Origin: Collinsella phocaeensis
GTDB taxonomy: Bacteria; Actinomycetota; Coriobacteriia; Coriobacteriales; Coriobacteriaceae
DNA: 64,000 nt
Reading direction: 5' to 3'
Assembly: GCF_900119895.1 (NCBI RefSeq)
Contig: NZ_FQLR01000004.1
Location: 496,001 to 560,000 of the forward strand
Shown here: positions 23,171 to 26,689 of the stretch, piece after piece
Layout: the number at the start of each line of letters is the position of its first letter
Position numbering within the stretch: position 1 is the first letter of the stretch
The notes under the pieces: model-generated
Databases searched by the model: none
What the model was told of the DNA's origin: nothing
What the model saw: the letters and a program-made list of their open reading frames with translations, nothing else
Translations under genes and position numbers: made by a program

Positions 23171-23209
23171 GGGAAGAGGCTGTTTGGGTCGAGGAGAATC
23201 GAGCGCTCA

Positions 23210-25245
23210 ATGGATGATTTGAAGCAGGGGGGGGGTCGTCACGAGCTGACGATCTGACATCCGGCGCTGCCGGTCGCGATTCGGGGCCAGACGGGCCGCG
23301 CCGGTCGAGGCGCTTTCTTGCGCTGGTCGCCGCCGTTGCCGCCTGCCTTGCTGCGCTCTTCCTCGTCGTGGCGGTGCTTCCCGGCGTCTTGCGCTGGGGC
23401 GCTCCCGTGATACGCCCCAACGTGATCATCTACGATGAGGAATCCTCGCCGTTCACGATTATCGAAAGCAATTCCAGCAACATCATCGTCTCGTCGACGG
23501 AGGGGATCGAGGAGGGCTCGATCGTCAACTCCGGTGTGATCGACGCCGCTCCCCAGGGGCTGTTGCGCAAGGTCACCGCGATTCGGGCCATCGAGGATGG
23601 GTATCTGCTGGAAACCGACCCTGCGGCGCTCACCGAGGCGATCGAGTGCTGCGATATCCACGCGACCGTCTCCATGGGCGAGGACGGCACTTACATCGTG
23701 TCAGAGCAGACCGGTCAAGGTGCCGAAAACTCGCTCGTGCAGCAGGCGTTTGCCGAAGGCGGCGCGCTGGACAACCTGTTTGTGTATCCGGAGCAAGGGA
23801 CCGATGCCGAGAAGGTGTCCCCGGTGACCGCGACCGCGGGGATGAAGTTGGAGGTATCGCTCAAAATCGACCGCGGCAAGGTTGACATGTCCGTCATCGG
23901 GCGCGTCGGCGCGGAGCTTGCCATGAAGGAGCTCTCCGCGAGCTTCGAGCGCAATCTGTTCGACCGGGACCTCTTGCCGTTCACGATTCCCGTCGGGCCC
24001 CTGATGATCCCCATCGACACGAATCTCGCCTTCGATATGGCGCTCGATGTATCGAGCCAGGCCCTCGACATGGACGTCGCCGCCTCGCTGGGATGCGAGG
24101 TGGGCTTCGAGTACACCACCGACGACGGTTTCAAGGCCATCTGCGAGAACACGTCCAAGAAGCCATCGGTGCGCTTCAATCCCGGTGACGACCTGTTCAG
24201 CGTCTCTGCGGAGGGTGGGTTTACCGGAACACTCGGCCTGCGCATCTTTGGCATCGCGGGCCCCGACCTCTCCATAGGGCTCGCGACGGATGCGGGTGCG
24301 CGCCTGCAGACGGTGCCCGAGGGGGAGAAGACCAAGGGAGCGATCGAGCTCCCGGGATGCGACGCGAAGCTCCGCGGCATGATCGAGGGCAAGGTGTACG
24401 TGCCCCTGTCCGGAACGTTCCGTTGCTCCACGCCCAAGTTCAACCCGTTCGACACCTTGGGGTCGATTGTCGATTTCGAGGGCATCGAGCTGTTCGACAC
24501 GGGCGACTCCCTCGTCCTGCTCTCCATTGACGAGACCTTCGGCGAGATCGAGGAGGCCTTCCCGAACGCATACACCACCAAGCTCTACACCGAGCTCGAC
24601 GAGCCCGGCCCGGCTCTGACCTTCGGGTACCCCGATTCGTGGAGAATCGTGGACCGCGAGGTGGACGAGGAGCTTGGACGCGAATACGTGCGCCTAAAAA
24701 ACGATCGCGATGCGGTCGTGTCGCTTGAGTGGTGGCTGGCCAAGCCGGTGCCCATGCCCTCCATGCGCGCCACGATGATGGGCCGGTCCGGCGATGCCGA
24801 GGTGCTGCAGGATGTCTCCTTCACGGGGAGGGCGTATCCGGGTGTCGACGACGATTTGTTCGCCAAATTGGGACGCAATGTCCTGCAGGGAGGCGCCGAG
24901 CGGCTGCTGCCCTGGCCCGAATCTATGGACGAGTCGGCGAAGTCCGTAGAGCTTTCTCTGGTTCGGCAGGACTACCGGAACGCGATGTCCAGCGTGCCCG
25001 GTATGGCTGAGGATGGCTACGCCCTGTGGAGGGTCGTCCCGGCTGTCTCTTCGCCCCAGGAAGCAGCCGCCCTGCTCGATAACGAGTACCTGAGCGACCC
25101 CGATGCCGGCTACCCCGCCCCGTTCTTCTACGGGTGGATTGATTTCCACGGTACGAGCGGATTCGAAGGTGAGTCCTCTTCCGAGGATGCCGCCGAGATC
25201 GTCGCGATCCTCGCGAGCCTGAGGCAAATCCCCGCGTCCGATTGA
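23210..25245 (+). CDS. Membrane-anchored extracellular protein, out of frame at a G9 tract (phase-variable candidate)
   Basis: The long open frame ending at 25245 has no start codon that keeps its N-terminal membrane helix: going upstream, in-frame codons encode RRFLALVAAVAACLAALFLV and then run to a stop at 23215. ATG 23210 (MDDLKQGGG), 13 bases after GAGGAG, is in the other frame and hits TGA after 15 codons. One extra G in the run at 23227-23235 would join the two into a 678-residue protein: short cytosolic tail, one signal anchor, large outside part. GTG 23368 would be the start if no shift occurs, but it cuts the helix. The exterior begins with SIVNSGVIDAAPQGLLRKVT, a domain type found at the start of many bacterial surface proteins. 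The remainder is unrecognised. Confidence 0.65.
23227..23235 (+). repeat. Homopolymer of nine G inside codons 6-9 of the surface-protein gene
   Basis: Nine consecutive G residues follow MDDLK. Tracts of this length slip during replication. Adding one G restores the reading frame of the downstream gene. Confidence 0.85.
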
Positions 25246-25309: not shown

Positions 25310-26689
25310 ATGTTGTGTCCCCAGTGCGGTGCGGAAAGCGCATCCGGAACCGCGTTCTGCAGGCAGTGCGGAACGAAGTTGAATCAAGATCAGGCAACGG
25401 CCGAGACGGTGCCGCCCGCGCCGTCGGAGCCGACGGTGGAGCCCGCCGTCGAGCACGATGTCGAGTCGTCTGGCGGGGCTGCCGCCGAAGTCGAGCCCGC
25501 CGTCGCGTTCGAGCCCGCGGCCGAATCCAAGTCCGAGCCCGCCTCGCAGCCGGTCCCGCAGTCCGGATTCAAGAAGCCTGTTTTCAACAAGCCCGTTCCC
25601 AAAAAGGCTGTGATCGCGGCCATCGCCATCGCGGCCGTCACGCTCATCGCGTTCACGGCATGGAGTCTCCTCGGCAGCTCACCGAAGATCTCGGCCGAGC
25701 AGGTCGAGAGCGACCTCATTAAGGAATGCGGTCTCACAACCGGTTTCCTCTCATCCTCGTATGTCGAGGACACCCCGTATGAGGTCACCTCGTTCGAGGT
25801 GGTGAGCACGGAGAAGCTTCCCAAGGGTGGTGACCTCACGAACATGGAGACGTACGACGTCGAGGTGAAGGGCACCGTGGCGAACGAGAGCTTTGAGTCG
25901 ACCTTCGCCGGCTCCGTGCAGTACATCTGGTATCCCGAAGAGCTCCGAGTCGATGACGAGGAGTTTGTCTTGATGACCGATCTCGAGGTCGCGGACGTTT
26001 CGACCAAGCCGCTCAAGGGCATCGACTACGTGAGCGATACGGATGAGGACTGCGAATACGAGAACGAGGAGATCTCGTTCGACGAGAAAGACGGGACGTA
26101 CACCTCGGTCCTGACGCGTACGGAGGTCATGGGGACCTGGTTCGTGAAGGAGAGCGTCGACCAGAAGTACGTTTTCGAGTTCGATGAGGAGCACGGTTGG
26201 CAGGCTGAAGGCGAGCCGGAGCTCAGCAATCAGAAGACGGAGTGGCTGATCGCCGGGAAGACCTTCGAGCTGACGGAGTATCCGCAGTCCGGAAACTATG
26301 ACGGCAGCGTGGTGAGCTCCATCTCGCTCGGCCCGATTGACGAGAACGGTGCCCAGGTGAGCGCGACGTACACCTACGATTACACGACCACGCAGGTCTC
26401 CGCCATCAGCTCCAGCTGGACCTATCAGAACGTGAACCTGTCCGGCGACCTCACGGGTACCGTGAGCAGGGAGCCCGGGAGCGGCTATGCCGAACTTATG
26501 CTCAAGGACGAGGCAAACGGGGTCTCCTTTACGTTCAGGCTCTCGGATGACGAGGAGGACGCGAAGGCGAAGTGCATGCGCGGGTCCATCGAAACCGAGT
26601 CGGTCGTCCTCGTGCGCGACGCAACCTCGACGAACGATATGTACGATGCTTCGGATCTGGTCTACACGATGAAGGATGCGTCGGAGTAG
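25310..26689 (+). CDS. Zinc-ribbon, single-pass membrane protein with large extracellular part
   Basis: 459 residues. AAAAAGGAGG precedes ATG. The N-terminus is a double-CxxC zinc ribbon (MLCPQCGAESASGTAFCRQC). A Glu/Pro/Val-rich linker, a basic stretch (FKKPVFNKPVPKKA), one membrane helix (AVIAAIAIAAVTLIAFTAW) and an acidic, Ser/Thr-rich exterior of about 330 residues follow. This layout (cytosolic zinc ribbon, one helix, outer beta-rich part) is common in Gram-positive gut bacteria, with no assigned role. It follows the poly-G gene by 65 bp without a terminator, so both are probably one transcript. Base composition is lower in GC than the flanking genes. Confidence 0.75.
   Translation: MLCPQCGAESASGTAFCRQCGTKLNQDQATAETVPPAPSEPTVEPAVEHDVESSGGAAAEVEPAVAFEPAAESKSEPASQPVPQSGFKKPVFNKPVPKKAVIAAIAIAAVTLIAFTAWSLLGSSPKISAEQVESDLIKECGLTTGFLSSSYVEDTPYEVTSFEVVSTEKLPKGGDLTNMETYDVEVKGTVANESFESTFAGSVQYIWYPEELRVDDEEFVLMTDLEVADVSTKPLKGIDYVSDTDEDCEYENEEISFDEKDGTYTSVLTRTEVMGTWFVKESVDQKYVFEFDEEHGWQAEGEPELSNQKTEWLIAGKTFELTEYPQSGNYDGSVVSSISLGPIDENGAQVSATYTYDYTTTQVSAISSSWTYQNVNLSGDLTGTVSREPGSGYAELMLKDEANGVSFTFRLSDDEEDAKAKCMRGSIETESVVLVRDATSTNDMYDASDLVYTMKDASE

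Follow-up and report, generated by a model that had tools for sequence, protein, structure and literature searches.

The window analysed here (the whole stretch of 64 000 nucleotides from Collinsella phocaeensis; positions are counted from its first letter) raises the question why a long and well-preserved open frame has no usable start of its own, while a start codon stands just upstream and is separated from it by a run of nine G residues. Our answer, to which we give a probability of roughly 0.7, is that this is a contingency (phase-variation) locus. An added start codon would be set apart by the poly-G tract from the conserved N-terminus of an extracytoplasmic protein anchored in the membrane, and slipped-strand mispairing in replication would add or remove one G, by which the start is joined to the gene or parted from it. 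G10 (or G7) would be the ON state, giving an anchored protein of 678 (or 677) residues; G8, G9 and G11 would be OFF states giving peptides of 12–15 residues, so that the genome was sequenced in a putative OFF state. We infer that the tract at 23227–23235 itself varies in length, that translation begins at ATG 23210, that the switch is reversible and that the protein is exposed at the surface. Phase variation is the best reading because the same layout is found at a type III methyltransferase (mod) gene of the same genome and because tract length varies at orthologous loci of sister species; these two observations, together with the homologues of the gene, indirectly but strongly support the phase-variation reading already put forward in a preliminary description of this DNA. 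The coordinates of all features are collected in Table 1.

Reading frames around the G-tract

Between ATG 23210 and the G9 tract lie 14 nt, which places the first G 17 nt after the A of the start codon. As sequenced, the frame from this ATG runs into TGA 23255–23257, which ends the peptide after 15 codons. One G more (G10) gives 678 codons from the same ATG and G7 gives 677, while G8 and G11 lead to a stop after 12 and 13 codons, respectively; a second ATG (23214) is read for only 2 codons before a stop. The long frame itself is limited upstream by TGA 23215, and the first ATG, GTG or TTG within it is a GTG (23368) in the hydrophobic segment. The homopolymer is the sole lesion of this 675-codon frame, whose codon-position GC contents (0.64/0.46/0.82) are normal for coding sequence. 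As in SSR contingency genes, the homopolymer is placed so that a change of one unit toggles the frame, and the gene downstream is otherwise intact and conserved.

Direct reading and frame computation thus agree with the preliminary description on the start codon, the nine G residues and the stop after 15 codons, on the opening of the long frame by G10 or G7, on the strong signal anchor and on the lack of any other suitable start for the long frame. The GAGGAG that it had placed ahead of the ATG is present as well, at a spacing (13 nt) longer than optimal. Its 17-bp-spaced promoter did not hold up: a consensus scan finds none, and TTGCTT-17-TACAAA matches at only three out of six and four out of six positions. 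The long Shine–Dalgarno spacing and the lack of a recognised promoter count against phase variation.

The G9 tract is also the only G or C run longer than 6 in the 64-kb window. Runs of 5 occur 114 times and runs of 6 four times, there are none of 7 or 8, and there is one of 9; the expectation from a second-order Markov model is ∼26, 7, 2 and 0.4 for lengths of 6, 7, 8 and at least 9, respectively.

Table 1. Positions of the features discussed in the text (window coordinates unless a locus name is given)
Feature	Position	Strand	Basis or remark
Putative Shine–Dalgarno sequence GAGGAG	23191–23196	+	Direct reading; 13 nt before ATG 23210
15-codon ORF of the sequenced G9 (putative OFF) state, MDDLKQGGGRHELTI and stop	23210–23257	+	Frame computation
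Long open frame, 675 codons, putative switched protein	23218–25245	+	Homologues (28–41% identity) in other Coriobacteriales genera
G9 tract, proposed slippage site	23227–23235	+	Direct reading, frame computation, run-length spectrum; C1:519227–519235 in the genome
Transmembrane/signal-anchor helix FLALVAAVAACLAALFLVVAVL, RRSRR just before	23314–23379	+	Hydropathy; aligned anchors of homologues
GTG, earliest in-frame start when the tract is G9	23368–23370	+	Inside anchor; no Shine–Dalgarno sequence
Zinc-ribbon protein gene, neighbour	25310–26689	+	Missing, together with the putative switched gene, in sister species with CAAX protease and ygiQ adjacent
Methyltransferase gene (type III restriction-modification), with G9	L091:4987–7016 = G000:C1:946086–948115 (L091:5011–7016 also given)		
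Flp-pilin-like loci	L120, L121, L138, L139, L142, L146, L147, L174, L175, L180, L181		
brxA loci of sister Collinsella	L129, L122, L168, L179, L192		

The predicted protein and its homologues

The protein encoded by the long frame is predicted to have a few residues, RR, a helix and then ∼600 residues, and it is because of this layout that we take the large domain as extracytoplasmic. The anchor reaches a Kyte–Doolittle peak of 3.05 over 19 residues, and we speak of a putative surface protein on the basis of this single N-terminal anchor and the large domain behind it. The protein has no family match in Pfam, NCBIfam, PADLOC or PDB and no LPXTG-like sorting motif; AlphaFold, run without an alignment, gives a pLDDT of 40.

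Homologues were found in six other Coriobacteriales genomes, of non-Collinsella genera, with 28–41% identity (41% for the nearest genome carrying the gene); the contigs of named genomes yielded no relative. In all six genomes the gene is uninterrupted in the stretches read and has no G-tract. It starts with an ATG a few residues ahead of a single N-terminal membrane helix, and a purine-rich, Shine–Dalgarno-like stretch precedes this ATG. Since intact homologues start just before the same anchor without any tract, the window ORF is a real gene, and since their starts lie by the anchor, the position of ATG 23210 is where one would look for its own start. In the alignment, the GPRRSRR-anchor of the window protein matches the GPRRPRS-anchor of two homologues, and the Met of these two homologues (MSSRSPESQHAGGPRRPRS) aligns directly behind the window G-tract (GGGSSRADD..GPDGPRRSRR). 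It follows that the G-tract with its start codon is a lineage-specific addition.

The gene is absent from all 44 other Collinsella genomes searched, which is a further point against phase variation. In sister species that have the CAAX protease and ygiQ genes adjacent there is nothing between the two, so that both the window gene and the adjacent zinc-ribbon gene appear to have been inserted.

Start-proximal G-tracts in the genome, the genus and the order

The genome (2.1 Mb in four contigs) contains 16 G-tracts of at least 9, most of them intergenic. As 13–43 such runs are expected per genome from the Markov model (base composition alone gave 168), the genome-wide count by itself is not unusual; what is unusual is the position of the tract and the lack of runs of 7–8 in the window. 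By post hoc arithmetic over ∼1900 genes, ∼0.14 tracts of at least nine G are expected 12–30 nt behind a start, and two are seen. We scanned the genome for a start with a Shine–Dalgarno sequence, a tract and a long frame within one base, and retrieved the window gene and one other locus only. At this second locus (C1:946110) an ATG lies behind GAGGAG, with a G9 tract (C1:946110–946118) 24 nt from the ATG; 21 codons are open as sequenced (OFF) and 676 codons at G10. The encoded protein is a type III restriction-modification methyltransferase (E-value 1.8e-195 for MTase_III in PADLOC). Like phase-variable type III mod genes in general, this is a methyltransferase gene with a frame-toggling 5′ repeat tract, and it is likely to be a phasevarion of this Collinsella genome. 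The mod gene of one sister genome (G047) is 73% identical to it and has a related leader ahead, ATGCTGAACCCCGAA..TTC with G8 (ATGCTGAACCCCGAAATTCGTTTCGGGGGGGG); with G10 or G7 this leader opens 57–58 codons, ending just before the mod ATG.

Not every long G-tract of this genome is a switch. For example, the G10 upstream of a GntR gene does not qualify as a coding switch, since the regulator has a normal later start. Two other tracts have different placements. A G9 on the minus strand of its locus (L095:5046–5054; G000:C2:145345) takes up the Shine–Dalgarno position of a sensor histidine kinase gene, 5 nt ahead of the ATG; here tract length may tune translation. Another G9 (L090:5040–5048; G000:C1:676339) is ∼70 nt downstream of an ATG and in frame with an ORF of ∼240 codons, which encodes a protein without assigned identity and is possibly a switch in the ON state.

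Tracts of at least nine G were inspected singly in eight sister genomes. Sister Collinsella have G8–G11 tracts behind the starts of genes for Flp-pilin-like, SpaA-like and other secreted proteins and for BrxA, and tracts are also found where the N-terminal parts of large secreted proteins, a SpaA-domain protein and a CAP-domain protein are encoded. Members of the Flp-pilin-like family share a leader, ATGCATGCAGCGG..TTC (or CTC), followed by G9–G11; some genomes have several copies, with the frame open or closed by tract length, and a DUF6273 match is clear in at least one of the proteins (L120). The leaders of this family have two overlapping ATGs 4 nt apart, so that G9 and G10 are each readable from a different ATG.

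Two orthologous tract loci were traced through all 45 Collinsella genomes. The first is brxA of the BREX phage defence (Pfam BrxA, 1e-32), which has a GTG start and the tract at 25 nt: G9 is found in four species (in frame, 227 codons) and G10 in three (closed), and the flanks are identical. We regard it as a candidate for phase-variable BREX. The second encodes a secreted protein, and its orthologues have G8 (one case), G9 (five cases) or G10 (one case). As G-counts differ between orthologues with constant flanks, it is the tract length that changes and not the flanks; the length variation expected of SSR contingency genes is thus seen at start-proximal loci of Collinsella other than the one in the window.

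Within the genus, GGAG-N4-10-ATG-N12-30-G9 is matched 42 times, compared with 10 for the reversed pattern. Among 397 genomes of the order it has ∼332 matches versus 74 reversed (our own addition of the table), or 199 versus 74 if two exceptional genomes are left aside, where overlapping matches enter into all order counts, which therefore do not equal numbers of loci. In G372 and G373, both from another family, SD-ATG-N-G9 is matched 46 and 87 times and its reverse not once; the pieces sampled from them (L251–L270) have a GC content of ∼0.55 and G9–G14 tracts, some of which are behind a start codon. At one locus (L194; G007:C6:692176) runs of G and of C (up to 40) follow one another in long chains, which resembles an assembly artefact.

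We lean towards the view that in Collinsella, and probably in other Coriobacteriales, start-proximal poly-G is a general random switch of surface, pilin-like, type III methyltransferase and BREX genes, with each clone mixed in its surface and phage-defence states and the window gene as one member. The genus Collinsella is common in the human gut and has been linked to several diseases. If this view is true, surface proteins, DNA methylation and phage defence switch cell by cell via G-tract slippage, and annotation, strain comparison and phage work on the class have missed a source of clonal heterogeneity, such genes being prone to pseudogene calls or wrong starts in annotation. Of more interest than the single locus is that start-proximal G-tracts occur across Collinsella as a set, at genes for surface proteins, methyltransferases and BREX; counting tract lengths in reads that already exist would test the listed loci directly.

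Alternative explanations and known systems

The main rival, as the preliminary description had also held, is an error of assembly or sequencing, in which the true tract is a fixed G10, the gene is always in frame and one G was dropped. Both start-proximal G9 genes are OFF and each is short of exactly one G, a pattern that a systematic undercall would also give; the long contigs make a long-read origin with homopolymer undercalls possible, and the lengths recorded for G-tracts in databases are known to be unreliable (PMC9187656). We nevertheless consider such an error unlikely: the same assembly contains G10 and G11 tracts, and the sister variation at identical flanks is seen partly on contigs whose names follow the SPAdes style and give short-read coverage values. 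As the window has no other G-runs >6, the retention of a G10 behind a start codon would call for an explanation of its own, and even a true ten-G tract would be expected to slip there.

A recent loss of function is distinctly less credible. Under it the frameshift is fixed in the lineage and the gene is a young pseudogene, which would suit a gene that is alone in the genus, is inserted next to ygiQ and has homologues without the tract. But a fixed loss is made less likely by the homopolymer being the only lesion in 675 codons; the codon-position GC is still normal for coding sequence, the mod gene of the same genome is in the same state, and a one-base change in a G-tract is reversible rather than a stable loss.

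Transcription can slip on long G-tracts. Correction at the level of expression, in which RNA polymerase or ribosome slippage yields a constant in-frame fraction from unchanged DNA, could account for a low-level leak from the OFF state but is the least probable explanation of all, given that sister orthologous loci differ in DNA length and that the equivalents in Bifidobacterium breve act through replication slippage (PMC9187656); transcriptional slippage is possible as an addition to DNA switching.

Phase variation by a G-tract, the reading that we prefer, is a kind of switch already known from the pili of B. breve and from Mod phasevarions. In the literature searched, no paper describes phase variation by homopolymer for Collinsella or any other coriobacterium, which agrees with the preliminary statement that such switches are little described in this class, although such a search is no proof of absence from the literature as a whole. 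Within the same class (Coriobacteriia), the capsule of Eggerthella lenta is phase variable through DNA inversion (PMC13174815), as opposed to the homopolymer slippage proposed here. Campylobacter jejuni NCTC11168 has 29 poly-G/poly-C tracts of at least 7 (PMC4965091), and the likeness is that of a genome-wide set of G-tracts inside reading frames that gives ON/OFF states; but C. jejuni is a low-GC epsilonproteobacterium, whereas the present genome is that of a high-GC actinobacterium, with a window otherwise free of G-runs >6.

Type III mod genes that are phase variable count among the classical contingency genes (PMC2667262, PMC5700931), and modH of Helicobacter is one of them (PMC5700931). 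The mod gene described above is similar to the phasevarions of Haemophilus, Neisseria, Helicobacter (modH) and Streptococcus suis (modS) in having a frame-toggling simple repeat at its 5′ end; the likeness concerns this second locus only, not the window gene. If it is a phasevarion, switching would change methylation across the genome and with it the expression of a regulon.

For the pilus genes bbr_0113 and bbr_1889 of B. breve UCC2003, switching by G-tract slippage was shown experimentally: pili were produced when the frame was fixed, and deep sequencing revealed mixed tract lengths (PMC9187656). The window locus has the same arrangement, again in an actinobacterial gut commensal: a short upstream ORF with a start and a Shine–Dalgarno sequence, an intragenic G-tract and a main ORF without a usable start, in which slippage would restore the frame of a surface protein. 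The B. breve pilin has a Sec signal and LPXTG, whereas the window gene, known from its sequence alone, has a single N-terminal anchor, no LPXTG and no pilus cluster. The window gene, then, is no sortase pilin, but it would work like the Bifidobacterium switch.
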